From: Sporocytophaga sp.
GTDB taxonomy: Bacteria > Bacteroidota > Bacteroidia > Cytophagales > Cytophagaceae
Length of the DNA stretch: 64,000 nucleotides
Assembly (NCBI RefSeq): GCF_017745095.1
Contig: NZ_JAGHZZ010000003.1
Location: 310,001 to 374,000, forward strand
Direction of reading: 5' to 3'
This document shows, piece after piece, positions 47,841-64,000 of this stretch (position 1 is its first letter; each line of letters starts with the position of its first letter). A program made the translations under genes and the position numbers. Below the pieces are notes generated by a model, which was not told where the DNA came from, ran no database searches, and worked only from the letters and a program-made list of their open reading frames with translations.

Positions 47841-48191
47841 ACCTATTATATTTTACAGACTATAGAACTAGTCAGTAAAAATATTATTGCCAACAATTTA
47901 TTTACCCATTCAGAGTTACAGGATGTATTTAATATGGAATTGTATTAATAAGAACATTAAGGAGAATAATTTGCCTGTACCTAATAAAAAAAGGATTAAT
48001 AAGAATATTAATCTGAACCAGAACAGAAAATTGATTGACTATTGCATTCGCAAACTGTGCAATACATTTTAAAAAAAATCCTGACAGGTGACAAAGGATC
48101 AGTAAACTGAGGCTTGTCATCTGTCAGGGGCAAAAAATCGCAAAGTAAAAATTAACCAATAAAGGTTCCAGGTAAAAAATTAAAATCTTAT
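47841..48191. other. 351-bp divergent spacer
   Basis: AT-rich region holding the DyP-operon terminator at 48080-48128 and presumably the promoter of the CHU_C gene. No convincing ORF is present. Confidence 0.4.
48080..48128 (-). terminator. Terminator of the DyP operon
   Basis: CCTGACAGgTGACAA pairs with TTGTCAtCTGTCAGG (14 pairs, one mismatch) and is followed on the minus strand by ATTTTTTTTAAAA, about 64 nt after the DyP stop. Confidence 0.75.
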
Positions 48192-49727
48192 TTAATAAAT
48201 TGATAACCCTATATCAATAAATGATTTTCCCTCATTCATGCTTATGCCTTCTAAAGATTCCTTGTGCGCCAGATATCTGATAGCATTTAGACCAGGCATA
48301 AAAAAATAGGCTCCCCCTACAACTGTTACAAAATTCTTTTGCAACTCTAGTCTTTTTCTAAATGGATGATCAGGAATAGAAAATGTTTTACCATTTACAG
48401 GAAGACTAGCAACCAAGGGATCGGGATCATTATATAATCCTAGAAATTTGGGGTTATTTATCCAATTTTGCTGAATGAATTCAAATTGCTGAGAAATGTC
48501 AGCATTAAAACAAATGAAGTTCAGGCCCCTACTGCCTTTATCTCCAGAAGAAGCAGCTATTGCATCTTTTATGAAGTCCTTCATATCTTGAGCATCACTT
48601 ATTCCCGTACCGTATGATCTGCCCCTGCGTATGATTCTATGATTGCGTACCGCCTTCAAAGATTCTTCAGGTTTATCCTGGATCATTGAATCACGGGGAT
48701 TAGACCTTCGTACATGAGATGCGAAAGGACATTTTAACCCATCAGGGTCTTCCTTTACAAAACCACGGATATTTTCATCTTTACTTATAAAAGATGTACC
48801 ATCTGGCATGCGGCCTACCATTTTAGACGCAATGTATTCGGCATCCATCTCCATTATGTTTGATGCTTTTGCTTGCTGGTCTGCATAGCTCCAGAAAGCA
48901 CTTACATCCTGCTCCAGTTGCCTGAAGACAAGATAGGTGCCATTCTTCCCAAAATCACTTTTAAACGAAGCATGTGAGTCCGATTTACAGGGTGAAAGGT
49001 ATTTACTTTCGGACTTTACAAGAGGACTTCCAGATTTCTCATCATATTCATTTATACAACCTAAAAGAACTTCTCCATCTTTCAGTACATCTTCACGATG
49101 GATATCCCAGAATTTAGCTTTACCACTATGTTCATTATCTGGATGCCTGTTCAGATAATGGTTTAAAAAACCTTCTGTAGTGACATCAGTAATTCCATCG
49201 CGAAAGCCAAAATGTTCTTTTTCTCTGAAAGAAGAATCTACTCTATAAGCAAGGTTAATATGAGCACTATTAAGTTCAAGGCTATCTATTTTCCTTTCAA
49301 GAGCAGCAGGGTCTTTTCCAAAGACCATCAAAAGCATATCAACAGCACTATCCTCCTTTTCATTTCCCCATTTCCAGTTTGAAGGATCATTTTGTTCAAA
49401 GTCTCCAAGAATTTTTTGCCTTGCTATCATTCCCTCAATGAAAGGAATAGAGAATGTATGCAATTCATCATTATCAACGCCAAGCTTTACAAGCCCTTCT
49501 TTTGTGAAAGCAATATTTAAAGCGCTCTCTCCATGACCTTTATCTAGGGTTTGAATAAAATTTAAATTATGCTTTAACCATTTTCTAGTTTCTTCAATAG
49601 CTTCATTCTTAAATCTGCATAACAAGTATGCCGAAGATTTAAGGTCTCTATAGCCCAGATAAATGAAGGATTGAATATCTTCAACTTGAAACTGTGAACT
49701 AGTAGTATTATCCGTCATAAGATTCAT
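48192..49727 (-). CDS. DyP-type heme peroxidase
   Basis: 511 aa. Seen: the DyP signature FGFRDGIT (GxxDG, catalytic D177), SHVRRSNPRD with H338 as the plausible heme-ligand His, NHRIIRRGRSYG with the conserved Arg pair, and FICFNADISQQFEFIQQNW in the C-terminal ferredoxin-like half. No Tat or Sec signal is seen, so it is probably cytoplasmic or exported by other means. Known: DyPs oxidise dyes, phenolics and Mn with H2O2, and some are encapsulin cargo; no encapsulin gene is nearby. It is the last gene of the operon (8-bp gap). Confidence 0.93.
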   Translation of the reverse strand: MNLMTDNTTSSQFQVEDIQSFIYLGYRDLKSSAYLLCRFKNEAIEETRKWLKHNLNFIQTLDKGHGESALNIAFTKEGLVKLGVDNDELHTFSIPFIEGMIARQKILGDFEQNDPSNWKWGNEKEDSAVDMLLMVFGKDPAALERKIDSLELNSAHINLAYRVDSSFREKEHFGFRDGITDVTTEGFLNHYLNRHPDNEHSGKAKFWDIHREDVLKDGEVLLGCINEYDEKSGSPLVKSESKYLSPCKSDSHASFKSDFGKNGTYLVFRQLEQDVSAFWSYADQQAKASNIMEMDAEYIASKMVGRMPDGTSFISKDENIRGFVKEDPDGLKCPFASHVRRSNPRDSMIQDKPEESLKAVRNHRIIRRGRSYGTGISDAQDMKDFIKDAIAASSGDKGSRGLNFICFNADISQQFEFIQQNWINNPKFLGLYNDPDPLVASLPVNGKTFSIPDHPFRKRLELQKNFVTVVGGAYFFMPGLNAIRYLAHKESLEGISMNEGKSFIDIGLSIY

Positions 49728-49735
49728 GTATTAGA

Positions 49736-51037
49736 TCAAGCAAACAACTTTAACCATTGATGAAACTCGGCAGCATTCATTTTTTCCTTTTGTATGCCAT
49801 CAGAGATAGATGCATTTCTCAATTTATCTTTCATTACAACATCCGTATATCCGGAATACCAGAACGGGCATTCTATCTGATTCTTTCTTACCAAAGGCTT
49901 AAATGATGTACCTGAAGAAGCTCCCCCTCCAAAAGCAAAAGAAACTTTAGGATACCCTCTCATATTGGAAAAATTGAAATTGATAGCCTGCGCTCCCCTG
50001 TCAATAAAGTCACTGATGTAGCTTTCCCATGTACCGTCATAATCACTTAAAAAAAGGCAGTGAAATATTTTTTCCTTCTTGTTCCCTGGATGAATAAATT
50101 TATTAGGAATAATGAGCCATTTTACAAAATGAATACTCTCAATCCCTGCAAGTTTTCCGGTTCGCTTACGCCCTCCAGAAAACCTGGCAATACTGAGTGA
50201 TACTTGAAACTTCCAATACCATAACCATGTTGGAGAATTTTTCAATATACCATGAACACTTAATTGATTTTGAAGTACATTATTCTCTTCCTTACTTATT
50301 TTCTTATAATGATCATAATTAACCTTCGACGGTTTTGCATTCCCCTCCCTCATGATAAACTGTCGGTATAAAGAAAAAAGTATTCCCACTGGAGCGAATG
50401 TAATAACAAGTACCAAACACACTAAAAGTCTCCATGTCAATTTTAAGGCCCATACCGCTTTATACCATGGATGAGATTTATAAGTAGTCTCCTTGTATTT
50501 TCTTCGAATGAACTCAGCTTTCTCTGGAAAATCCGAAGGATCAAGCATACTTAATTCCCTTTCAACTTCAGAACGAAGATTTCTTTCATCTATAATCCTT
50601 TTAACCGACCAGCCTGGCTTTCCTACCCAGAATAAAGACTCCGTAACTGCATTCGAATTTATATAGCTAAGAAAGGCTTTGCTATCAGATTCACTTGAAT
50701 ATCCATAGCAAAGCGAATAGACCTTATCTATAAAGCTCCCAAGTAATTTATAGAGATTTAGCAGAACAGCTTCTTTATCTCCATCAAAATTCATTGAGAA
50801 TACCAGATAACTCTTTTCCAGATCAGGTTTGGAAGAACTTTCAAACTCATCAAGGACAATATTTTCTCCTGTGATCAGAAACCATCGAAAAAAATGAATA
50901 TCTAAATTTAGGGATCCTGAAACCTTTTTCATTCCCAATTCAAGCAATGCTTTCAGTCCCTCCTCCCTGCCATGCATTATTTCCGTAACAGCATTGAAAG
51001 ACTTTTGACTTGACAATTTATAATCAATGTCTTTCAT
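49736..51037 (-). CDS. Uncharacterised membrane protein with internally duplicated domain
   Basis: 433 aa, family not recognised. Seen: a first half with IHFFRWFLI (47-55) and YLVFSMNFDGDKEAV (77-91), a membrane segment (about 200-224, WRLLVCLVLVITFAPVGILFSL), and a second half with IHFVKWLIIP (302-311) and CLFLSDYDGTWESYISDFID (327-346). The two halves repeat the same order of an [IS]HF-x-[RK]W strand and an LFS/LFLS-x-x-DG strand, so the protein is an internal duplication. Gly/Ser-rich FAFGGGASSGTSF lies near the end. It overlaps the upstream catalase-like gene by 4 bp (ATGA). Its place between two heme-type proteins suggests a shared function (inference). Confidence 0.75.
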   Translation of the reverse strand: MKDIDYKLSSQKSFNAVTEIMHGREEGLKALLELGMKKVSGSLNLDIHFFRWFLITGENIVLDEFESSSKPDLEKSYLVFSMNFDGDKEAVLLNLYKLLGSFIDKVYSLCYGYSSESDSKAFLSYINSNAVTESLFWVGKPGWSVKRIIDERNLRSEVERELSMLDPSDFPEKAEFIRRKYKETTYKSHPWYKAVWALKLTWRLLVCLVLVITFAPVGILFSLYRQFIMREGNAKPSKVNYDHYKKISKEENNVLQNQLSVHGILKNSPTWLWYWKFQVSLSIARFSGGRKRTGKLAGIESIHFVKWLIIPNKFIHPGNKKEKIFHCLFLSDYDGTWESYISDFIDRGAQAINFNFSNMRGYPKVSFAFGGGASSGTSFKPLVRKNQIECPFWYSGYTDVVMKDKLRNASISDGIQKEKMNAAEFHQWLKLFA

Positions 51038-52053
51038 ACCAATTTCAGGTCTTTCTCTTTACTCTCCTTCTTTAACTGGCGTTCGCGTATATTTCTTCTA
51101 TACTCTGAAAGTTTCTCATAAATAACATGTCTTGCCCAGTTCATTGCACCAAAATATTTATGTTCGGGAAGACTGTTTCCGACATTGAATTCCATATCTT
51201 GCCCTTCCTGCACTCTTTCCTTGGTATCAAATACCTGCTTAGGAATTCTGATTGTGGCGACATGGGTCAGAGGTCCATTCCAATCAATAACAGGATCTTC
51301 CGGTTTGGTATCATCACTCGTCTGAAACTGAAGATAAACGTCAAGAATAATCTTTTGACCAAACTGCAGACTCTGAAATCTTTTCTTCATAACATTTTTC
51401 AGATAATCTTCATGATCAGGATCAGGGTAGTTCAAAAATTCATATACTTCTTTAGGTTTAACAACATATTTAACAAGCGTATTCTCATTTCCAAATGTGT
51501 ATGCAGTCTGACTGTAAAAAGGAATATTAAAAAGGTCCACTGTTTTCTTTCTTGATTTAAGAGCCATTAGGGCAATATAGGGCCAGGTTATAACACCTAA
51601 AAGTATCATCAATCCACCACTGAAAAGAAACTTAAGTCCGTAATACGTTTGCTTAACTGTTCTTGATCTGAAATGAGGAGAACTTCCTAGTAAGAAATCC
51701 TGATTCATTCCTCGATCCTTGTGAAAGACGCGCACAGCAAGGGTCCTCACATCCTTCTTGAGCATTTTGTTTTTTCTGTAAGCACTTGCATAACGCATTT
51801 TAGCGACAAACTTCTCGCCAGGATTTTCAAATAAACCAACCCTTAACTCCTGAGGAAGGTTAGTATCAACAACAAATTCAGCTTCAAGGAATCCATGCAT
51901 CATCGGGCTGAATACCCTTCTGGAATAATCTTGCTTAGATAAGCTGCATAACTCTTTTTCCAGCAGTGCTACGAGTTTGTAGGTATACTTGATATCATCT
52001 TCTGTATACTTTTTTTTCTCGTCATCTCTTAAGTATTCCTCTTTGCTTTCCAT
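51034..52053 (-). CDS. Membrane-anchored catalase-fold protein lacking distal His/Asn
   Basis: 339 aa. Seen: a catalase-like pattern SRRVFSPMMHGFLEAEFVVDTNLP, LRVGLFENPGEKFVAKMRYAS, DVRTLAVRVFHKD, DFLLGSSPHF, YSQTAYTFGNENTLVKYVVKP, and a C-terminus EHKYFGAMNWARHVIYEKLSEYRR. In true catalases the first motif has RVVHA (distal His) and the fourth NNTPVF (distal Asn); here they read RVFSP and GSSPHF. A hydrophobic stretch at about 140-165 suggests membrane insertion, unusual for the family. The tail may still hold heme. Role unknown. It is the third gene of the operon, 37 bp after LytTR. Confidence 0.78.
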   Translation of the reverse strand: MESKEEYLRDDEKKKYTEDDIKYTYKLVALLEKELCSLSKQDYSRRVFSPMMHGFLEAEFVVDTNLPQELRVGLFENPGEKFVAKMRYASAYRKNKMLKKDVRTLAVRVFHKDRGMNQDFLLGSSPHFRSRTVKQTYYGLKFLFSGGLMILLGVITWPYIALMALKSRKKTVDLFNIPFYSQTAYTFGNENTLVKYVVKPKEVYEFLNYPDPDHEDYLKNVMKKRFQSLQFGQKIILDVYLQFQTSDDTKPEDPVIDWNGPLTHVATIRIPKQVFDTKERVQEGQDMEFNVGNSLPEHKYFGAMNWARHVIYEKLSEYRRNIRERQLKKESKEKDLKLV

Positions 52054-52090
52054 TGTTAAGTAACGTTAAAGGTTCGAATGAAAAATTTTG

Positions 52091-52792
52091 CTAAATAGAT
52101 TTCAAAAATTCATCTTTTTTTCTTCTGGATATATCGATACAAGTTTCGTCTGACATTACTGCAATTCCGGATTTCCCTTTAATATACCTGACTACATAAT
52201 TGCTGTTTATAAGGTGTTTGTTGTGTACTCTTATAAAATCATATCCTTTAAGTTTAACCTCATATATACCCAAAGTTTTTGTAGTCAGATATTGACCTTT
52301 TACAGTAAAAACTTCAGTATAGTTGCCACTTGCTTGAAATCTTATTATATCAACAATGGGAACCACATAAAAACCTTCGCTATCGGGAATTCTGATTCTT
52401 CCTTTGGAAATAAGAACATCAGGATCAGCAGATGCTTTCTTTTCACAGACGCGTTCAACAGCCTCAATCAGTTTGTCAACCTCAAAAGGTTTTAGCAAAT
52501 AATGTATGGCTCCATTAGAGTATGCTTCAGGACCATATTCTTTATGTGCAGATATTATTACTACGTCAAAGTTTCTGGTAGCTTTTTTCAGTAATTCAAA
52601 TCCTGAAAGCCCAGGCATTTTTATATCGAGAAAAATCAATTCGGGAGATAATGTTTCAATCATTTTCATCGCCTCCAAAGGATCAGAGGCCGTACCTGAA
52701 ATTTCAAGATCTTTACAGTGCTCCTTAATCAAGTCACTCAGTATATCTATTACTTCCTCCTGATCATCGATTATGAGTGTTTTAATTTTCAT
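52091..52792 (-). CDS. LytTR-family response regulator
   Basis: 233 aa. Seen: receiver (1-115) with D56 (ELIFLDIKMPGLSGFELL) and K101 (YLLKPFEVDKL), then a LytTR DNA-binding domain (about 130-233) with IIRFQASGNYTEVFT and FIRVHNKHLINSNYV. Known: LytTR regulators bind direct repeats and activate nearby genes. Its ATG overlaps the end of the giant sensor gene by 11 bp. Probably the sensor, with its Hpt-like end, phosphorylates this regulator (inference). Confidence 0.93.
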   Translation of the reverse strand: MKIKTLIIDDQEEVIDILSDLIKEHCKDLEISGTASDPLEAMKMIETLSPELIFLDIKMPGLSGFELLKKATRNFDVVIISAHKEYGPEAYSNGAIHYLLKPFEVDKLIEAVERVCEKKASADPDVLISKGRIRIPDSEGFYVVPIVDIIRFQASGNYTEVFTVKGQYLTTKTLGIYEVKLKGYDFIRVHNKHLINSNYVVRYIKGKSGIAVMSDETCIDISRRKKDEFLKSI

Positions 52793-55700
52793 TTGTTTGT
52801 TTCATTAAATCAGAAAATGATTCTCGCAGCTTACCACATTCTGTGTAAAGCAAACCGGTCAAAGCCTCAGTATTCTCAAACACTTCTTCAGTCTTTTTTA
52901 GCTGATCGTTAAGGTTCTTGATATCAAGCGCATTTAAAACATTGTATATACTATGTATAGTCAATGCAAGAGCTTTAAAAGCTATCTTATTGATATTATC
53001 AGAAAAAGTCTCAGTATATAATTCTAGTTTACCAATGTGTTTGTTCAGATGTTTGTTAAAAATATCCCGATCCTGGAAGATGGATGAAAGATAAGGAAAG
53101 GCACTGCCTTCATCATCATGGATCAATTCAGTCAGATCATCATCGAGCAACTCAGAATGTCCGATTAATTTACAAATTGCTGACACTAGCTCAGCTGCAT
53201 TTACCGGCTTGTATACTACATCATTCACTCCTGCCTCTTCAGCAAGTATATCTTTTTGTTTAAAAATATGAGCCGTAAGTACAAGAACAGGTATCTGGTT
53301 TTTAGGAAATGACAAACTCCTTCTAATGAACTTACACAAATCTGCTCCACTCATTTCAGCCATTTTCAGATCAGTAACCACGATATCATAATCATGATTC
53401 TTAATCATTTCAATAGCTTGAAAGCTGCTGACAGTCGAAGAGACTTCAGCTTCTCTTTTCTTCAGAATCTCTCCTGCCAGTTCAAGATTTAAAGGTTCAT
53501 CATCTACAAGTAAAATTCTCTTTCCTCTGAGAATGCCTGAATTAGTATTAAATGTTTTTCCTCTGCTCTTACCTGAAAGCCATTTAAGTTTTATATTAAA
53601 TGTAAAAACAGAACCTTTATTAAAAGCGCTTTGAACCTTTATATTCCCATCATATAACTTGATCAATTTTTGTACTATAGCTAATCCTAATCCACTTCCG
53701 CCATAATTTTTAGAGATATTGCTCGAGGCTTGCGTAAACTCTTGAAATATCACATCAAGCTTATCCTCTTCAATTCCGATTCCTGTATCTGACACTGAAA
53801 ATTCAAGGTAAATGAACTCTTCTGAAACTTTCACCGTGCGGACATCTACTTCTATTTTTCCTTTATGAGTAAATTTTACTGCATTGCCAATAAGGTTGAT
53901 CAGGATCTGATTCAGCTTGTTTTTATCTCCGCAGATATCATGAGGAACTGAAGGATCCATATTAAAAATAAACTCCAGTCCCTTGTTTGTAATCATGTCA
54001 TGAAACATGAGCCGCACTCCCATCATTAGTTCATGAAGATCAAAATCTTCTTCAACAAGCCTTATTTTGTCTGAACCGATACGCGCAGAATAAAGGATAT
54101 CATTAATAAGAGACTGTAAAGTACTTGTGGCTGTTTTAATTTTCCTGATATTGTCATGCAAAGGCCCGGAAGATTTGTCCAGCATAAGTAAATCAGTAAA
54201 CCCAAGAATCACATTCAAAGGAGTAAGTATTTCATGGCTCATTAAAGAAAGGAAATCTTCTTTAACTTTTAATGATTCCTCAGCCCTGTCCCTTGCTTCT
54301 TTAAGTAATGTATTCTGCTTAAAAATCTCTTCTCCCTGCTTGGTTAAAAGTAAATTGGCATCCGTGAGCTCTTTGGTTCTTGCCAGTACCTCTCCTTCCA
54401 ATGCTTCATAAAATCTCGAGTTTCGTAAAGATATGGTCAATTGTCCAGACAATATTTTTAAAAATTCAGTAGTTCTTGCTGAAAATATGTTTGCAGTGAG
54501 ATTATTCTCCAGATACAACATACCTTCCAGCTTACCTTGATCAATCAGAGGGAATACAATAATGCTTTTTGGCTGGAATTTTAAAATATACAGATCCTTA
54601 CTGAACAGCACATCGGTGCACGCATCTTTAAGAATAACAGTTTCCTTTTTTCTTGACGCAAATCCTATGATTCCATCCGGGAATAATTCATTGCGATTGA
54701 ACACTAATCCGCTGGTATCGACTTCATATTTATCCATATCACCAAATGCAACCAGCTTCAATTTTTCCGGAGTATTGATAAAAAATCCAGCTTTATGAGC
54801 CCCTCCGTGCTCCATAATAATTTTTATAAGCTTCCTGAAAAGTTTTTCCTGAACAATCTCTTCAGAAAGAACTGATGCAGATTTCAAAAGACTATGCAAA
54901 GTAAGCTTTTCATTTTCCAAAGAGAATAATTCCTTTGTGTCCTGAAACTTAGTATCTGCACTTTTGCGCAATGCACTTACTTTAGATTTTGCTCCCCACA
55001 GACTGTAAAGATCAATGGCCTTTGCAAGGAAGCTTTCATAAAAAATATAGTTTTTGGATCTGTAATAAAATTTAGCCAACAGTTCATAACCCAGCGCTTC
55101 TTCATTAAGGTATCTGTTGCTTTTAGCAAGCTCTATAGCCTTTTGATAACATCCTATCGCATCTTCAGGCCTCCCTTTTAACTTCAGAAGTTCCGCTTTT
55201 ACAAGATAATATTTATGAAGGCCATTCATCGGCGCATTATCAGCGATGGCTTTCAACTTTTTGAGGTTTGAATTCAAAGCCCCCAATAAGACTGATTTAC
55301 TGTTATAGCCAGAAATTTCCAATGCTGCGGCAATACTCAGAGAATCATAAAAATAAAAAATGAGATTGAGCGAACTCCCTATTACATTCGACAACCTCAT
55401 CTTCGCTTCATGCGCGTGTCCCCTTGATTCATTTATGTTACCAAAAAGGTAATGCAGGTACATCTTGCAGAGATGAAATTCAAAAAGTGATGTTTCAACT
55501 TTCTCCGAGTATAAAAGACTTAGCATCTCCTTCTCATTAAAAAACTCGCCTTTAAATTCGAGAGGATTTGCGTCATTGCTGATCAGATTAACAACAGTCT
55601 GAGTATATATCCCATGCTGAATGATGGGCATCTTATGTTTTATACTCTGAACTATACTAAAATTATCCAGCATTATCTTCTTCAACTCATCCAATTGAAG

Positions 55701-58700
55701 GCCGCAAAAAAAAGCATTGAAATTATATACAAAAATACAATAAGCAGAATACTCCGTATCTCCAGTTTCTAATCCTATCTCAGAACTTTCAGCTAGAGGT
55801 TGAAGAGATTCGCGTAAATGATGCTTCCAGTGCATCACAAAATTATGCATTAAAAAAACAGTCTTACATTTCAGAACATTATTTCCATGTTTCAGCAATA
55901 ATGGCCCTGCAGAATTTCCAATTTTATAACCGAAGTTGATTTTACCCAATCCACCAATGAGCAGAGAACCGAAACTTGCACATATAAACCCTGAATATTC
56001 ACAGTGCCCGTTTCTGATTATCAATTCAAATGCTTTACAGGAAAGTAGTGCATATAAGTTAGGGTCTGAATTATAAGCAGCCGCCCCTACAGAACAGATG
56101 ATTCTTATTGCAGAATATATTCTTTCATCATTCAGATGATGCTTATCTGTTAAGAGGTCCTCTCCGGAAATTTTCAGATAGGCTACCACCTTCACAAGTT
56201 CCGCAAGTACCTTTAGTTTGTTAGGCGTACCTGGTATTTTAATATCAAGCATCCCCAATACATATAAACCTATATCAATTGCTTCCCTCAACCTTGATTG
56301 GGCGATATAGGCCAGGATGCGAATTTCATATACCTTTATCTTTTTATCCTGAAATTCATAATTAGCAAGAATTTCTTCTATTGCTATCTCCATCTCTTCA
56401 AAATTCCCTGTGAGATAAGCAGCTTCTGCATATAGTGAATAAATATCTGCAGTATGAGGCGCATTGACCTTCCATTTGTCGGTAAACAAAAGTAGTGTTG
56501 CATTTCGGGAAAATTCATAAAAAGGCTGAAACGCCGCACTGGTCTTCATTTTCTTTGCAGCTTTGTAATTCTGCTGAGAGAGAAAAAATTTTTCATCTTC
56601 ATCAAATACAAGTTGCATTGAAAAGTTATAGTGGTATACCAAATCCAATAGATGACTTTCCAGCTCTTCAGAGTTCATTCTTGCTTTGAAGCTTCTGGCA
56701 ATCTGCAGATGCATTTTCTGAGGATCTGTTATCAATGCATTGGCAGCTTGTTGAATGCCATCATGGGAAAAGCGGTAATCATTGCCTGATTTGATAAGCA
56801 GGTTTTCTTCAAAAGCCATATCCAGCTTGCTTTTTATCCTTTCGAGGGACATCGGCAGGATAATCTGTAATATGCGAGGATTAAATTTACTTCCAAGGCA
56901 GGATGCTATCTGTAACAACCGGCTTGTATCATCCGGCAATCCTTTTAATTTTGATTCTATAAATTTTACTGCATTGTCAGAAATTTTGATAGACTTAATT
57001 TCGTCCAGATCCCAAACCCACTTTTTATCAAAGCATAATAACTTCTGTTTAACAATGGACCTTAAAAATTCACTTGCAAAAAAAGGATTACCTGAAGTCT
57101 TTGCATATACTACCTGAGCAAGGCTGGCAACTTCTGTAACGGGAAGGTTTAAAGTCGTAGCCACATATTCTTCAATCGCAGTATTGCTTAAATCTGCAAT
57201 GGGGATCAAGTGGTACTCCTCATTAATTTCACTCAGTTTAAAAAGTAAATTGTTTCTTACCTCTCTTGGCTCTTCTTCACGGACTGCCCCAATGAATATT
57301 ATATTATTGATATCCTTTTCACTCAACACTTCCATCAAAAGATCAAAAGAAGATTTATCCAGCCATTGAAGGTCGTCAAAGAAAACAATCACTTTTGTCA
57401 CATCAGCAGAAATAATTTTGAAGAATTTTCTCATTGTATAAGAAAATCTTTTTCCGCTTTCTGCCATTGGCAATGTTGTCACCTCTTGTTGTTTGCCTAT
57501 AATCAATTCAAGTTCGGGAACAAGATCTGTAAGAACCTTGCCCGAACTTCCAATCTGGTCCCTGATTTTTGAACCATAACTTTTTATGACTGATTCATTT
57601 TCCCTAAGGACTGCATTAACAAAATCTGTGATAATCTGAATGAAAACAGAGTATGGATAATTCTGATCAAACTGGTTGGATTTAGCCTGGAGAAAAAATC
57701 CAGATTGAATATGTCGTTCATGAATATGCTTGATAAGACTGCTCTTCCCACTCCCTGACATACCTGAGACCAGGCATATTACTTTCTCTCCATTACTTGC
57801 CTGTTCCAGTAGATTCTTAATTTTATTGATCTCTGTTTCACGGCCAAACAATTGATCTGGCAACTTGAGTACTACATCATGGCTTCCAATTAAAAAAGAT
57901 TCTATAAATCCGTTTTTCAATTCATTATGACATCTTTCAAGATCATATCGTAGCCCAATAGCAGTTTGATATCTACTTTCCTGATCTTTACTTAAAAGCT
58001 TTTGGACGATCTGTGACAAGGATTCAGGAGTACCATTAACCAATTCATTTAGAGGAACAGGCCTTTTGGCAAGATGAAAATGTATCATCTGATATGGATC
58101 TTCCGAATAAAAAGGACTCACCCCGCTGAACAACTCATAAAACATTACTCCCAGAGAATATAAATCACTTCTGTAATCAGCCAGTTTACCTACTTTACCT
58201 GTAAGTTCTGGCGAAATATAACTCAGGAAAGTGGAGTCATTTATTCTACTATTGTGCTGATTCTGCTCACTATAAAAAGTGGCATTTGAAAAATCAAAGA
58301 TCCTTGCTTCTTCAAAATCAGCAGACAATAATATATTATATGGTGCAAAATGATTGTGTATGATTTTATTGTCGTGAATTTTCTCAAGGAGCTTTGAGAG
58401 GCTAATGCATATTTTAATCTTTTCAGCAATATTGGTAGAGGCAAATAAATTCTGAAGTAGCAAAGTTAGTCCATTAAAGTACTCCAATACTAAAAGTACT
58501 TGGCCATCAGCCTCATCTATAGTTGGTAATGAAGATTGAGAACCGTCTACCAGAGAAAAAAAATCCAGTTCTTTACTTCTTTCCTTTGGGGCCAAAGCAT
58601 TTCGTTGTAACAAAACACGTTTGTTATCTTTAATTCTGCATGCTTCCCAAAGAGAGAAATTAAAGGAAGCATGAATAAGTTTTATGTCCTTATAGCCCAA

Positions 58701-58709
58701 AATATCCAT
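52782..58709 (-). CDS. Giant kinase-AAA-TPR-GAF-hybrid histidine kinase sensor
   Basis: 1975 aa. Seen in order: protein-kinase-like domain (1-270) with HNHFAPYNILL (118-128) where HRD is expected, DFS (139-141) and SPEL (166-169); AAA/ATPase with Walker A GMSGSGKSS (316-324) and Walker B VFFDDLQW (442-449); a long helical, TPR-like region (700-1260); GAF (about 1280-1430); coiled coil; HisKA with H1492 (MSHEILTPLNV); HATPase with DTGIGI (1641-1646) and GSGLGL (1671-1676); receiver with D1780 and K1834; and an Hpt-like tail with H1919. The kinase part lacks the catalytic Asp (H120) and the usual Lys (VLLQ), so it is probably a pseudokinase. Known: the same domain order occurs in trifunctional Ser/Thr kinase-ATPase-HK proteins. 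It is the first gene of the operon. Confidence 0.9.
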   Translation of the reverse strand: MDILGYKDIKLIHASFNFSLWEACRIKDNKRVLLQRNALAPKERSKELDFFSLVDGSQSSLPTIDEADGQVLLVLEYFNGLTLLLQNLFASTNIAEKIKICISLSKLLEKIHDNKIIHNHFAPYNILLSADFEEARIFDFSNATFYSEQNQHNSRINDSTFLSYISPELTGKVGKLADYRSDLYSLGVMFYELFSGVSPFYSEDPYQMIHFHLAKRPVPLNELVNGTPESLSQIVQKLLSKDQESRYQTAIGLRYDLERCHNELKNGFIESFLIGSHDVVLKLPDQLFGRETEINKIKNLLEQASNGEKVICLVSGMSGSGKSSLIKHIHERHIQSGFFLQAKSNQFDQNYPYSVFIQIITDFVNAVLRENESVIKSYGSKIRDQIGSSGKVLTDLVPELELIIGKQQEVTTLPMAESGKRFSYTMRKFFKIISADVTKVIVFFDDLQWLDKSSFDLLMEVLSEKDINNIIFIGAVREEEPREVRNNLLFKLSEINEEYHLIPIADLSNTAIEEYVATTLNLPVTEVASLAQVVYAKTSGNPFFASEFLRSIVKQKLLCFDKKWVWDLDEIKSIKISDNAVKFIESKLKGLPDDTSRLLQIASCLGSKFNPRILQIILPMSLERIKSKLDMAFEENLLIKSGNDYRFSHDGIQQAANALITDPQKMHLQIARSFKARMNSEELESHLLDLVYHYNFSMQLVFDEDEKFFLSQQNYKAAKKMKTSAAFQPFYEFSRNATLLLFTDKWKVNAPHTADIYSLYAEAAYLTGNFEEMEIAIEEILANYEFQDKKIKVYEIRILAYIAQSRLREAIDIGLYVLGMLDIKIPGTPNKLKVLAELVKVVAYLKISGEDLLTDKHHLNDERIYSAIRIICSVGAAAYNSDPNLYALLSCKAFELIIRNGHCEYSGFICASFGSLLIGGLGKINFGYKIGNSAGPLLLKHGNNVLKCKTVFLMHNFVMHWKHHLRESLQPLAESSEIGLETGDTEYSAYCIFVYNFNAFFCGLQLDELKKIMLDNFSIVQSIKHKMPIIQHGIYTQTVVNLISNDANPLEFKGEFFNEKEMLSLLYSEKVETSLFEFHLCKMYLHYLFGNINESRGHAHEAKMRLSNVIGSSLNLIFYFYDSLSIAAALEISGYNSKSVLLGALNSNLKKLKAIADNAPMNGLHKYYLVKAELLKLKGRPEDAIGCYQKAIELAKSNRYLNEEALGYELLAKFYYRSKNYIFYESFLAKAIDLYSLWGAKSKVSALRKSADTKFQDTKELFSLENEKLTLHSLLKSASVLSEEIVQEKLFRKLIKIIMEHGGAHKAGFFINTPEKLKLVAFGDMDKYEVDTSGLVFNRNELFPDGIIGFASRKKETVILKDACTDVLFSKDLYILKFQPKSIIVFPLIDQGKLEGMLYLENNLTANIFSARTTEFLKILSGQLTISLRNSRFYEALEGEVLARTKELTDANLLLTKQGEEIFKQNTLLKEARDRAEESLKVKEDFLSLMSHEILTPLNVILGFTDLLMLDKSSGPLHDNIRKIKTATSTLQSLINDILYSARIGSDKIRLVEEDFDLHELMMGVRLMFHDMITNKGLEFIFNMDPSVPHDICGDKNKLNQILINLIGNAVKFTHKGKIEVDVRTVKVSEEFIYLEFSVSDTGIGIEEDKLDVIFQEFTQASSNISKNYGGSGLGLAIVQKLIKLYDGNIKVQSAFNKGSVFTFNIKLKWLSGKSRGKTFNTNSGILRGKRILLVDDEPLNLELAGEILKKREAEVSSTVSSFQAIEMIKNHDYDIVVTDLKMAEMSGADLCKFIRRSLSFPKNQIPVLVLTAHIFKQKDILAEEAGVNDVVYKPVNAAELVSAICKLIGHSELLDDDLTELIHDDEGSAFPYLSSIFQDRDIFNKHLNKHIGKLELYTETFSDNINKIAFKALALTIHSIYNVLNALDIKNLNDQLKKTEEVFENTEALTGLLYTECGKLRESFSDLMKQTNEN

Positions 58710-59504: not shown

Positions 59505-60149
59505 ATGTCTTTTTTTTCATTTAATATGATTGTTCTGGCTGGACTGACCGGTACAGGCAAAACCCTTTTATTAGAACGTTTTGCACAATACAATTATCCA
59601 ATAATTCATCTTGAAAAGCTTGCAGGTCACAAAGGATCTGTTTTTGGTGATCTAGGTATCGACTCACTTCCGCCTGATCAAAAAACCTTTAATGCTTCCC
59701 TTGAACTAGTTTATCAACAATACAATGCCTCTCCTATAGTTTTTACTGAACATGAAGCTCCTGCTATCGGCAAACGGCGAATTCCTGAATGGTTCTACAA
59801 TCTGATAGAAAATGGATTTATCATTTACATCGATCTGCCTAAAAGTGAACGAATAAAACTATTAAAAAAAGAATATGGCCATTATGACCCATATCTTGTT
59901 AGCAAAGCGGTTGATAAATTAAGCGACAGAATTCCTGCAGTAATAGTAACCAAGTTAAAAGAATATTTATTCCATAATGATTTTGACCAGTTTACTGATT
60001 GCATTTTGAATTATTACGATCAATCTAATCATTATGTGACTATCCGGAATAAAGCTAAAATTTTGCTTGAGTTCCCTGAATTTAATCCTGAAGAAATAAC
60101 AAGCAAAATTTTAAATATGCTTAAACAATTCAACTTTCCTGTTCTTTAG
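59505..60149 (+). CDS. Stand-alone MnmH/SelU-like P-loop protein
   Basis: 214 aa. Seen: P-loop GLTGTGKT (13-20), IIHLEKLAGHKGSVFGDLG (the LExLAxHKGSxFG motif of tRNA 2-selenouridine synthase), LPPDQKTFNASLE, and TEHEAPAIGKRRIPEWFYN. These match the C-terminal P-loop half of MnmH/SelU. The N-terminal rhodanese half with its catalytic Cys is absent. Start 59505 is the track ATG; ATG 59526 (MIVLAGLTG) is an alternative. It is convergent with the next gene, with a 20-bp overlap. Full MnmH makes 2-selenouridine and geranylated tRNA; whether the lone half works is open. Confidence 0.82.
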   Translation: MSFFSFNMIVLAGLTGTGKTLLLERFAQYNYPIIHLEKLAGHKGSVFGDLGIDSLPPDQKTFNASLELVYQQYNASPIVFTEHEAPAIGKRRIPEWFYNLIENGFIIYIDLPKSERIKLLKKEYGHYDPYLVSKAVDKLSDRIPAVIVTKLKEYLFHNDFDQFTDCILNYYDQSNHYVTIRNKAKILLEFPEFNPEEITSKILNMLKQFNFPVL

Positions 60150-62004
60150 GAACAGCGGTCACAGTATCGTATTGAAGACCACTTGAACCTTCTCCTCTGC
60201 CAACTTGCTTTCTATAACCATACCAATTAATTACAGATCCATTGTACCACCTGGTTCTCTGGAAAGTAGCCTTTAACTTAACTCCTGCTCTCGGAACTTC
60301 TTCTTCATGTATAAAATAGGGGGTTACCTGAACATCATCTAAACCTATTCCCTCTCGCATTAATTGAGTTCTGGGTCTTATATGCGTATATTCTCCTTTA
60401 AATAGTCGTGGCATAGATGCCCGCTGTAATTGAATTTCGCGGTTGCTGCCAGACTTGTGAACAGGCAAAAAAGGTATCCAGTTTTCAGGCACCGAATTCG
60501 CAAGCATATAATTAAACATAGTACCCTGCACTTGGTCAACAACTTGAGGTGCTCCTCTGAATTTATTAAGTTCCTCCGAAAAGATATTCGCAAAACGATG
60601 TCCGTCCAAACTACTTCCAAGGCTATCTGGGATTTTGGATTCTATTGCCCACACCGTATTGGTCATTTCATCTCTCAATAAATGTACTTCTTCTATCGGT
60701 TCGCTTTCCATGTTTTTAACAACTACAGGTGGTATAAATAATCGAGTATCAGCGGGCACTTTTCTATCTCCTTCATTACTTATAGTGCTTAAATTATACA
60801 TACCCCAACCTGACCAGTCATCCGTTTCCCCCTGAATTGCCGATGTTACAAAAGTTTGTTCTCCAAAAACATCTGTTACAACTATACCCTTTACATCACA
60901 AATGCGGCCAACAGGAACCCGATACGGTACGAGGAGCCAGTCATTATTATAAAGCAAAGCATATTCGGTAAATATAAGTTTTGCAATATCTGTTGTTTGA
61001 GCGTTAATATTACCAAAGTCCACTTTACCATTTTCAAACTGCCACCACCTTGAATTAGGTGCTCCTGAAAATTTAGCCTCTGTTGGAATTATACTAATAA
61101 CTTCTTTTCTGTATTTCATTAACTCTTCTGAAGTAGCATTGCCTGAAATGCCTGGCACACCTTCTGATTTGTTAACATCAAAATTATACCAGTCCAGATC
61201 TCCGGAATAATATTCCGTAGCTCTGACCACAGTATTGGTACCATCTTCAGATGGCACCGCACAATCAAAACTATATTCAAGTTGATTAGGAACCCATGAG
61301 CTGGAAACATTAACATTATAATTTTTTGGTATCCAATTAATATAATCACTAATTGCCTTATTTAGTAACGAGAGATGCGAAGGATTATCTTCAAGTAAAA
61401 GAGTAATTGTACCATTAAGATCACTGACAAACGCTTTATATAGTGAAATTCCATCAAAGTATCTGTTTGCTGAAGCATTTACAAGAGAGTAATAATTTGA
61501 ATTGCAAAAAGCCTCAGTTTTATCAAATATTTGTTTATTGGAATCCCCATCCAATATTGATTGAACGGGTTCAATAGGACACATTTTCTTTAACTTGCTT
61601 TTGTAGACCTTTCTACTGAAATCAACTACTCCCCATTGAGAGGCAAGCTTTTCAAGGATATTCAGAAAGATCATACCTGATTCTAGTCTGGATTTAAAAT
61701 CAATTTTTTTAGGTATACTCTCTATTCGTTCCTCCAAGGGGGTAAAATCAGAGTAAGCTTCTACACTACCATCAGCAGTTTTCAATTTACTAACAGATGT
61801 AGTATGCATTAATATTTTGGAGAAAATAGCCGATCCGGTGTCTTCACCCTGAAACTCTCCAAATTGCCATTGTCTGGTTAACATCCACAATGGATCAAAC
61901 ACTCCACATTCCAGTACATTATCAAACTCAGATGTTCTGGGTCTTGGTTCCAGACGGTTCCATGCCCTGAATGGTTCACATGAAACAGTATCTACTCTTG
62001 CCAT
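60130..62004 (-). CDS. Large hypothetical protein (DPLWMLxRQWQFGEF family)
   Basis: 624 aa. No family name recognised. Seen: an N-terminal block WNRLEPRPRTSEFDNVLECG then FDPLWMLTRQWQFGEFQGED, which I have the impression is conserved in other bacteria; a middle alpha/beta region with WVPNQLEYSFDC and WYNFDVNKSEGVPG; a region RWWQFENGKVDFGN; YALLYNNDWLLVPYRVPVGRICDVKGIVVTDVFGEQ; and a basic C-terminus. There is no signal peptide or membrane helix. It lies 4 bp after the next gene (62009), so the two probably form one unit. Function unknown. Confidence 0.72.
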   Translation of the reverse strand: MARVDTVSCEPFRAWNRLEPRPRTSEFDNVLECGVFDPLWMLTRQWQFGEFQGEDTGSAIFSKILMHTTSVSKLKTADGSVEAYSDFTPLEERIESIPKKIDFKSRLESGMIFLNILEKLASQWGVVDFSRKVYKSKLKKMCPIEPVQSILDGDSNKQIFDKTEAFCNSNYYSLVNASANRYFDGISLYKAFVSDLNGTITLLLEDNPSHLSLLNKAISDYINWIPKNYNVNVSSSWVPNQLEYSFDCAVPSEDGTNTVVRATEYYSGDLDWYNFDVNKSEGVPGISGNATSEELMKYRKEVISIIPTEAKFSGAPNSRWWQFENGKVDFGNINAQTTDIAKLIFTEYALLYNNDWLLVPYRVPVGRICDVKGIVVTDVFGEQTFVTSAIQGETDDWSGWGMYNLSTISNEGDRKVPADTRLFIPPVVVKNMESEPIEEVHLLRDEMTNTVWAIESKIPDSLGSSLDGHRFANIFSEELNKFRGAPQVVDQVQGTMFNYMLANSVPENWIPFLPVHKSGSNREIQLQRASMPRLFKGEYTHIRPRTQLMREGIGLDDVQVTPYFIHEEEVPRAGVKLKATFQRTRWYNGSVINWYGYRKQVGRGEGSSGLQYDTVTAVPKEQES

Positions 62005-62008
62005 CTGT

Positions 62009-64000
62009 TTATTCTTGTTTAGTTTTTACATTTGAAAAATCCATTACCACCTGTACCCCTAAAGGATTATTTATTTCATCGGCAATTTGAGGAGGCACAA
62101 CTTCTGCAGCAATGGCTGGTAAAACATGATTTAGAAATGAATTATCCAAGTGATCCGGTTCAACGGCTCTGTTCTTTGCTAATTCCATTGTATCGATAAT
62201 TGTATATACTAAATCATCCCACTCCCACTGATTGGTTATACTTGGAGTAACAGCAAGCAATACCGATTGGGGAGCGGAAGCATTCGGCTGATTATAATTA
62301 AATACTATTCCACTCGTAACTTCTTTATCCGGTATTACTTCATGCCATTCGTCAATTATTAATCCGCAAACAGGCACAAGGCCTGTTACATTTAAAACAG
62401 CATCGTTAATTAGGATTAGTGATAGCTTATCTCCATTTGCTATATAATTGGAGGGATATTCCTGCCCCATCCAGAAATCTCCTGGTTGATATGGAAGTTG
62501 AACAGGCTCAATTGTAGCTGACGAATTATCATATATATCTGCAATCTGTCTCCACATTTGAACATCATACATTTTCTTTCTTACCCTTGATATACTTCCA
62601 ACCCATTCTTCAATTGCCAATAAGCCTTGGTGTCTTGTAATTCTGGAGTCGGGGGCAAGGGTTAATTGTTTGACAATATCTGTTGTATCATATGCTGTGA
62701 ACTGTGGAACTGCATGAAACGTTTTTCCAAAGATCACTTTTGCTAATTCTCCCAGTTTTTCTATTTTAATCTTTGCAACCGGATAAGCTGGCAATTTATC
62801 CTCAAGCTCCCTTGCTGATTTTCCTCTGGTTAATGCCTCTTTATATTTTAAAATAAGGTGTTGGAGAGCAGCCTGCTTTTGAGAAAATATATTCGTCTGA
62901 TCTTCCTTCTTCAGAGGAAAAGTTACAGACAAGGCATTTGGAATACCAAGAAAAAAAGCATGATAAAGTAAGTTAAATATACTGTCGTACTCCTGATCTG
63001 TTAATTCCACATCAGCTATTGCGACGTCACCTTTGAGAACTGCATCTACTATAGGTTCGTTCTCTACAGTACCAATAAAGGTTCTGAGAGATTGCAAGCC
63101 TATATCAATTCTCTCTTCAAATTCCGGAAGATTAAAATTTCCCGGATTCTGTCTATCGGATTCATCATTTGCCATCTGTAGATCATTAGACCCACAATAT
63201 CTGGAATTCCCAAACATGTTTACGATAGGCTTTATAAGTAAAAATATTTCGGCTATACTTCTGTCTTCTGAACTCCAATCTTCCCCGCGTTCATTTGTAT
63301 CCAATACAACAGCATTAGAATATTCATTTCTAATCCGTCTATATAAACTAACCAGTAAGTCCTTCAATTCTTCCTCTCCTCCAGGCAAACAGAAAAGATC
63401 TATTGGTTGAATCCCTAAAGAAGTTAGATCAAATCTCTCTCTTGTAACGGTCCCTCCATTTTGGATTACAGAAATAAGATATTTAATTTTTGAAGCCTCT
63501 CCAATGCTATCTCCCAGCCATTTATTAAAAGAGGGTTCGGTTTGATATCTTATTGAATTAGTCGACTCCCAGCCATTAGGTAAAACAGAAGGACTTATAG
63601 CAGCAAAGTTTAGTACAACTCTCTGTGTGACAACAATCCCAGTTCTATTGGTTTCTATCACTTGAGGATCCGGAATATTTTTCCCTTCACCCAAGGCTGA
63701 CAGAACTGCAGCAGCTCTCACGTGATTGCCTTGTACCATTTGATAAACACTTTCTGATATTGCAATATCACCAAGTGCATCATATGCATCTGCCATCCGA
63801 TCTATCTCATCAATTATAGCATTGTATATCTTATCTTTATTATCGTCGGTTGTCAGGGCGTTATCTATAGCAGCTTTAATTTTAGCAGGAAGAGCAGCAA
63901 AATTATTTTCTTTTAATGAGTCTCCTACTGTTTTGTCATTCAACTGGCCGGGAACAGGTTCAAGCCATTTTATTACCTCATAGACTTCATCAAGTATCAT
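62009..64000 (-). CDS. Large hypothetical protein, probably partial (runs to window edge)
   Basis: At least 663 aa; the ORF begins exactly at base 64000 with ATG, so the true start may lie outside the window. No family name recognised. Seen: helical N-part with YDALGDIAISESVYQMVQGNHVRAAAVLSALGEG; NRTGIVVTQRVVLNF; a central helical part; and near the C-terminus GLIIDEWHEVIPDKEVTSGIVFNYNQPNA followed by APQSVLLAVTP and WEWDDLVYTIIDTMELAKNRAVEPDHLD. These are strongly patterned, so the protein is real and conserved in style. It is paired with 60130-62004. Soluble, with no signal seen. Confidence 0.72.
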   Translation of the reverse strand: MILDEVYEVIKWLEPVPGQLNDKTVGDSLKENNFAALPAKIKAAIDNALTTDDNKDKIYNAIIDEIDRMADAYDALGDIAISESVYQMVQGNHVRAAAVLSALGEGKNIPDPQVIETNRTGIVVTQRVVLNFAAISPSVLPNGWESTNSIRYQTEPSFNKWLGDSIGEASKIKYLISVIQNGGTVTRERFDLTSLGIQPIDLFCLPGGEEELKDLLVSLYRRIRNEYSNAVVLDTNERGEDWSSEDRSIAEIFLLIKPIVNMFGNSRYCGSNDLQMANDESDRQNPGNFNLPEFEERIDIGLQSLRTFIGTVENEPIVDAVLKGDVAIADVELTDQEYDSIFNLLYHAFFLGIPNALSVTFPLKKEDQTNIFSQKQAALQHLILKYKEALTRGKSARELEDKLPAYPVAKIKIEKLGELAKVIFGKTFHAVPQFTAYDTTDIVKQLTLAPDSRITRHQGLLAIEEWVGSISRVRKKMYDVQMWRQIADIYDNSSATIEPVQLPYQPGDFWMGQEYPSNYIANGDKLSLILINDAVLNVTGLVPVCGLIIDEWHEVIPDKEVTSGIVFNYNQPNASAPQSVLLAVTPSITNQWEWDDLVYTIIDTMELAKNRAVEPDHLDNSFLNHVLPAIAAEVVPPQIADEINNPLGVQVVMDFSNVKTKQE

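Follow-up and report, generated by a model that had tools for sequence, protein, structure and literature searches.

A widespread, apparently undescribed oxidative gene module pairs a DyP-type peroxidase with a new protein family and adjoins a giant pseudokinase sensor in Sporocytophaga

A five-gene operon in Sporocytophaga sp., located in a 64,000-nucleotide stretch of contig NZ_JAGHZZ010000003.1 (the window), contains a widespread and apparently undescribed oxidative module, in which a DyP-type peroxidase is accompanied by an obligatory partner of predicted DABB type (here called MEM) and often by a third heme protein, either a catalase-fold protein (CAT) or a cytochrome P450. We regard the existence of this module as a conserved unit as practically certain, and it is highly probable that MEM and DyP act together.

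The five open reading frames all lie on the minus strand (Table 1), with intergenic distances along the operon of -11, +37, -4 (ATGA), and +8 bp. The locus of a sister species repeats both the gene order and the gaps exactly, with protein identities of 88 to 98% for the LytTR regulator, CAT, MEM, and DyP. The hairpin that follows the DyP gene folds at -25 kcal/mol (z = -5.5 against shuffled sequences) and ends in a U8 tail; it had been missed by a simple terminator scan because its loop exceeds the limit of that scan. The operon is real, and the first-pass annotation, which had proposed from the letters alone five minus-strand genes with these gaps and a single terminator past the last of them, agrees with coordinates, spacing, identical spacing in the sister species, and the hairpin.

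Table 1. Features of the Sporocytophaga operon, listed in gene order with positions in the window
Feature	Positions	Strand	Basis
SENS: 1975-aa pseudokinase-AAA_16 (STAND-type)-TPR-GAF-HisKA-HATPase-REC hybrid sensor	52782..58709	-	Pfam, kinase motifs
LytTR-type response regulator, 11-bp overlap with SENS	52091..52792	-	Pfam; overlap also in sister species (L017)
CAT: catalase-fold protein (catalase-related/AOS-like family)	51034..52053	-	Profile, AF2 model and Foldseek, alignment
MEM: new family, predicted two ferredoxin-like (DABB-type) domains and hydrophobic segment	49736..51037	-	AF2, Foldseek
DyP-type peroxidase, best solved relative DrDyP	48192..49727	-	Pfam DyP_N and DyP_C, motifs
Intrinsic-terminator-like hairpin with U8 tail, after DyP	48070..48128	-	Fold versus shuffles

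The product of the last gene, earlier read as a DyP peroxidase, is one by sequence: it matches the Pfam domains DyP_N and DyP_C, finds its best solved relative in 8re3 (3.6e-40), and carries all key motifs of the type, namely GFRDG (with Asp177), proximal His338, and the distal Arg in IIRRG at 365, residues that change little or not at all across ten relatives. Encapsulin-packaged DyPs likewise have a dedicated partner, but the partner of the module DyP is MEM. A role as encapsulin cargo was not supported, since PF04454 is absent from the window genome and from 8 of 9 other module genomes (hence from 9 of 10 overall), and the encapsulin gene that is present in Archangium lies far from the module.

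Judged from its predicted structure, MEM is a new family made of two DABB-type domains plus a hydrophobic segment. The AF2 model (pLDDT 85, pTM 0.86) contains two ferredoxin-like units and a long hydrophobic helix (residues 191 to 229), and its best Foldseek match is the ABM/SchA-like WhiE-ORFI (9lmn; E = 8e-6, TM only 0.37 to 0.44). Among 54 members checked, none had a convincing Pfam family, and the hydrophobic segment recurs in all 54 full-length MEMs; this family without a Pfam entry occurs in no fewer than nine phyla. Deinococcus, alphaproteobacteria, and Acinetobacter have single-domain relatives, whose one domain matches each of the two halves and which do not have the hydrophobic segment. 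The earlier description as a duplicated membrane protein was apt in that both the duplication and one hydrophobic segment were seen. Each half also carries one invariant His, which would suit a different assignment, in which MEM is a heme-binding carrier that supplies DyP and the second hemoprotein; several ferredoxin-barrel proteins do bind heme (PMC4835899), and a hemA gene stands upstream of the module in Sinorhizobium. We consider this assignment improbable, because the D. radiodurans DyP (DrDyP) is already heme-loaded when produced alone in Escherichia coli (PMC10820274) and because heme delivery would leave the hydrophobic segment and the patatin and START-like neighbors of the module unexplained.

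CAT had no Pfam match from its sequence alone, but its family profile matches solved catalase-fold proteins (3e4w, 1e-15; catalases; coral AOS 1u5u, 2e-5), and its AF2 model (pLDDT 85.6) matches catalase-related 3e4y (2e-13) and 1u5u (1e-11) in Foldseek. By both profile and fold, its closest solved relative is the MAP-2744c-type catalase-related protein (3e4w/3e4y), although the two share only ∼17% identity. CAT has the fold of a monofunctional heme catalase and retains the proximal Tyr312 and Arg308, both invariant in the family alignment, but not the distal His/Asn: Ser49 occupies the distal-His position in this lineage, and the distal-Asn region of the window copy is replaced in the alignment. 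The window copy is also a fold relative of catalase-related AOS and hydroperoxide lyase, enzymes for fatty acid hydroperoxides with a distal His/Thr/Asn set, of which it lacks the His. A catalase fold without distal His, as proposed in the first-pass annotation, thus describes this copy and not the family, nearly all members of which keep the His, and the accompanying idea of a membrane protein was not confirmed, since the family as a whole does not share the hydrophobic stretch of this copy. Relatives of 520 to 530 aa were also considered as ordinary catalases; they proved to be CATs with a fused START-like lipid-binding domain.

To place the operon in a wider context, we scanned GTDB genomes of all species with a MEM alignment led by a central member, which returned 207 relatives; the window MEM as a single-sequence query of genome contigs had found nothing. 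Neighborhoods of up to 10 kb on either side were studied for the best 80 of the 207, loci that are not independent of kinship and that come from Bacteroidota, Myxococcota, Gammaproteobacteria, Gemmatimonadota, Acidobacteriota, Armatimonadota, Chloroflexota, Actinomycetota, and others. MEM lies directly before DyP or is fused to it in 75 of the 76 testable loci among these best 80, across at least eight phyla and with a median gap of 10 bp, and the same adjacency or fusion was found in all 10 plasmid loci examined (by annotation there or by profile). Of 59 related genomes, the 10 that have MEM are also precisely the 10 that have the DyP clade, at 13 one-to-one places; the chance of such an identical pattern at the genus level is ∼4e-8. 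The CAT gene follows less strictly (7 of the 59 genomes, 6 of them MEM positive), and 5 of its 6 genera are among the MEM-positive genera (p = 1e-4). The genes beginning at 51034, 49736, and 48192 therefore do co-occur elsewhere, which had been set beforehand as the test that could overturn the proposal.

The third partner is exchangeable. Within the best 80 of 207, a same-strand adjacent or fused P450 occurs in 18 of 79 loci and CAT in 10; a further 16 have a P450 or CAT elsewhere in the locus or on the opposite strand, and 35 have neither nearby. The core idea of linked genes stood, but the catalase-like partner of the original proposal is replaced by a P450 in many genomes. P450, MEM, and DyP are joined into single proteins on plasmids of Pararhizobium, Novosphingobium, and Sulfitobacter, and DyP-P450, CAT-MEM, and MEM-DyP fusions were also found. 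A check for a peroxygenase signature in the P450 I-helix found the acid-Thr pair kept in most and the acid lost in the three triple fusions. The distribution of the module is patchy, with no other carrier among 395 other genomes sampled over the Bacteroidota phylum. A phage origin was dismissed, there being no match in phage genomes. The first-pass suggestion that no described system has this gene set is consistent with the literature available for search, which yielded no description of MEM-DyP pairs or P450-DyP fusions, an absence that is not proof given that subscription literature lay mostly outside the search.

A version of the module in Deinococcus radiodurans connects it to characterized proteins. 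There, a MEM-half gene, a DyP gene, and a catalase-family gene stand in a row, and the MEM-half gene stops a single base short of DyP. The DyP of this row is DrDyP, whose structure has been solved (DR_A0145; PDB 8re2/8re3). DrDyP is the closest solved protein to the window DyP and shares its position between a MEM-type and a catalase-family gene, but its locus differs in having a single-domain MEM without hydrophobic segment and no adjoining giant sensor, and Met rather than Gly closes its GXXDG motif. DrDyP was reported to be low spin and inactive at pH 7.5, and its authors propose that other proteins govern it (PMC10820274); a text search of that paper found no mention of an operon. A conserved gene directly precedes that of DrDyP, and the product of this gene is an obvious candidate partner. 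From locus-tag order, the catalase-family neighbor is presumably DRA0146, which is reported to have no catalase activity (PMC7247583, PMC7775534), and both DR_A0145 and DR_A0146 rise under UVC/vacuum (PMC5731708). DrDyP was reported without a known partner or substrate; the module ties these two orphan enzymes, DR_A0145 and DRA0146, together and makes their partners and substrate testable.

Recurrent neighbors offer clues to the substrate. A patatin phospholipase occurs in 13 of 79 module loci (from the best 80 of 207), with its motifs intact in 10 of the 11 inspected by script; the 16 sensor-only control loci have no patatin. Patatin stands immediately before MEM in Archangium (patatin-MEM-DyP-P450) and directly before it in five Bacteroidota loci, while the genes of Sphingomonas naphthae run catalase-like, MEM-half, peroxidase, thioesterase, patatin. 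Some module P450s are fused to a GST domain. Together, the patatin, the START-like domain on CAT, the GST-P450 fusions, and the hydrophobic segment of MEM lead us to favor, with some reserve, a hydrophobic substrate, which is probably a lipid and may equally be an isoprenoid or carotenoid; DyPs have been reported to be active on beta-carotene (PMC10820274). Four of the patatins adjoin a TIR-SIR2/nSTAND pair and may belong with that pair instead. Lipoxygenase was sought as a supplier of hydroperoxide and set aside, as none was found in 9 of 10 genomes checked, that of the window included. Most Bacteroidota are not known to contain polyunsaturated fatty acids, and given this and the absence of lipoxygenase, the classical oxylipin route is unlikely as such.

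A substrate among environmental aromatics (phenolics, lignin fragments, or pollutants) seems very improbable. Such compounds are DyP substrates in vitro (PMC10820274) and some carriers come from oil-contaminated soil, but DyP and CAT have no obvious signal peptide (by eye) and the recurrent neighbors are lipid-type rather than aromatic-catabolic enzymes. A more serious competitor, though still an unlikely one, is defense against lipid peroxides, in which the phospholipase would excise and the heme peroxidases reduce membrane lipid hydroperoxides while the sensor reports peroxide stress. The patatin, GST, and START-like neighbors would serve such a role as well, and the closest solved relative of CAT, 3e4y, is an organic-peroxide peroxidase. 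The D. radiodurans DyP and catalase-like proteins, moreover, rise under UVC/vacuum (PMC5731708). However, DrDyP performs poorly as a peroxidase at neutral pH (PMC10820274), the alternation of P450 with CAT and the P450-MEM-DyP fusions look biosynthetic, and the patchy distribution (0 of 395 other sampled Bacteroidota) is unlike that of a general stress defense.

We therefore retain assisted oxidation of a hydrophobic substrate as the working model, although substrate class, order of reactions, and an activating role for MEM are all inferred in it. As a pseudo-dimeric barrel, MEM would provide a docking site for DyP, which in many lineages would lie at the inner face of the membrane by way of the hydrophobic helix of MEM, and it would either put DyP into its active state or feed it the substrate. 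DyP would then oxidize a fatty acyl chain or a polyene/isoprenoid, and the CAT or P450 partner could convert the resulting (hydro)peroxide, by analogy with dioxygenase-P450 or lipoxygenase-catalase-type pairs elsewhere; we give slightly less than even odds to a DyP-made peroxide being the substrate of CAT or P450.

The exchange of CAT for P450 recalls fungal, Nostoc, and coral enzyme pairs, but the likeness goes no further than the logic. Fungal linoleate dioxygenase-P450 fusions (LDS/AOS/EAS type) likewise combine a peroxidase-type heme protein with a P450, and Nostoc 10S-DOX with its separate catalase-related hydroperoxide lyase likewise forms a heme-peroxidase-type/catalase-related pair (PMC13049297). 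The module differs from both in that DyP is not a COX/An_peroxidase relative (no Pfam match to an An_peroxidase/COX-type dioxygenase domain, the mark of the fungal enzymes, was found in the operon or the fusions), in its added obligatory partner of predicted DABB type, and in that any reaction with lipids is so far a prediction. Coral AOS-lipoxygenase and hydroperoxide lyase-lipoxygenase also couple a catalase-fold heme protein to another oxidizing enzyme (PMC5617202), and CAT is related to coral AOS 1u5u by sequence profile and fold. Unlike the coral systems, the module has no lipoxygenase in the operon (nor in the 9 of 10 genomes above), and the distal His, which is common to coral AOS and catalase (PMC5617202), is missing from this CAT.

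The remaining two genes of the operon encode a signaling pair. SENS matches Pkinase, AAA_16, TPR (weakly), GAF, HisKA, HATPase_c, and Response_reg in Pfam, and its kinase domain is a pseudokinase, with HNH in place of HRD and without the VAIK Lys; the chain of domains first read from the translation thus holds except for a C-terminal Hpt, for which there was no Pfam match. The regulator matches Response_reg (6e-20) and LytTR (1e-15). Like the HstK-type Ser/Thr-His dual kinases of cyanobacteria (cbSTKIII, PMC2176072), SENS unites a kinase fold, GAF, and a His kinase in one giant protein, but in SENS the kinase lacks the catalytic residues of a competent HRD/VAIK, a REC is added, and the protein is tied to a heme module.

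SENS relatives adjoin MEM-DyP in ∼23 of 79 loci (from the best 80 of 207 MEM relatives), upstream or downstream and in either orientation. The suggested link between sensor and module therefore extends beyond this genome, but the sensor is not universal: most module loci are without it, and the sensor family also occurs without the module. In 9 of 10 linked genomes outside Sporocytophaga, the linked sensor is the only one of its kind, while the two Sporocytophaga genomes have a second. Across these proteins, a constant input half is combined with varying outputs (HK-REC in the window; HisKA_3 kinase, SpoIIE phosphatase, or adenylate/guanylate cyclase elsewhere). The kinase catalytic Asp is lost in 20 of 22 linked versus 4 of 15 unlinked sensors (Fisher p = 9e-5, ignoring kinship); these counts are not independent, because a single clade of the sensor tree holds 17 of the 21 linked rows; on this tree the linked label needs at least four changes overall.

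That the sensor controls this operon is reasonably likely. The opposite case, in which the trio is the true module and the sensor/LytTR pair is here a chance neighbor or regulates something else, could draw on the occurrence of the SENS family without the module and on the placement of the window SENS outside the main linked clade. Against it stand the overlapping or closely spaced genes, whose spacing is conserved in the sister species, and the related sensors linked in other families, with the at least four label changes; we think it improbable. If SENS does exert control, this giant pseudokinase-STAND-GAF hybrid histidine kinase would presumably perceive the substrate, the product, or an accompanying stress and act through the LytTR regulator on the operon. 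Our best explanation as a whole, MEM-assisted oxidation by DyP with a CAT/P450 step under SENS/LytTR control, we judge to be evenly balanced between right and wrong. A bolder version, speculative and rather unlikely, is that MEM-DyP-(CAT/P450) is a new multi-heme oxidase complex of many phyla, in which the DABB partner would turn an inert low-spin DyP into a specific membrane-lipid/isoprenoid oxygenase, yielding a bacterial lipid mediator read by a dedicated pseudokinase-STAND-GAF sensor clade with interchangeable outputs. Should the lipid reading be true, bacteria would oxidize and sense lipids using protein families that are not related to plant, fungal, and animal lipoxygenases and cyclooxygenases. 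As a separate observation on the sensor family, three unlinked sensors adjoin carotenoid-oxygenase-like (RPE65) genes.

In the operon's counterpart in the sister species (G002, locus L017), the reading frame of the sensor gene is disrupted between its kinase and AAA portions by a run of seven T that aligns with six T in the window; the run may be a phase-variable tract, a sign that the gene has decayed, or a sequencing error. Members of this giant-sensor family also occur away from the module, and in L119, L120 and L132 they adjoin carotenoid-oxygenase-like (RPE65) genes, which is another terpenoid/lipid-oxidising enzyme beside this sensor type.

Each of the four Sporocytophaga genomes also has a second, distinct MEM-DyP pair (L020, L022, L023, L024, L036); a LytTR protein is encoded downstream of it, and upstream lie genes for two conserved uncharacterised proteins (∼640 and 694 aa). 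The P450 protein that follows DyP in L083 is similar in size to the GST-P450 fusions of other loci. A small membrane protein 3′ of DyP, carried by Chloroflexi, Agaribacillus and Aquimarina, is a further recurrent partner of the module. On a Sinorhizobium plasmid (L150), hemA lies upstream of MEM-half (a single-domain MEM relative) and DyP, and a NIPSNAP gene lies directly 3′ of them. Near the module in L045, patatin adjoins proteins of the SIR2-TIR and nSTAND ATPase kinds; the trio is defence-like, and its families recur in L061, L082 and L105.

Coordinates of features in the compared loci and the window
Feature	Position	Context
Frame break at 7-T run	L017:2195-2214	sensor gene
GST-P450 fusion, ∼700 aa	L103:7802-9895	directly 5′ of MEM
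GST-P450 fusion, ∼700 aa	L091:7628-9742	directly 5′ of MEM
Small membrane protein, ∼200 aa	L058:3222-3809	after DyP
Small membrane protein, ∼200 aa	L071:5398-6006	after DyP
Small membrane protein, ∼200 aa	L077:12657-13247	after DyP
hemA, MEM-half, DyP and NIPSNAP genes	L150:3357-8140	plasmid
Patatin, SIR2-TIR, nSTAND	L045:14424-19124	near MEM-DyP
Two large uncharacterised genes, 624 and >660 aa	window 60130-64000	spaced 4 bp

Beyond the operon, the two large genes adjoin its divergent neighbour.
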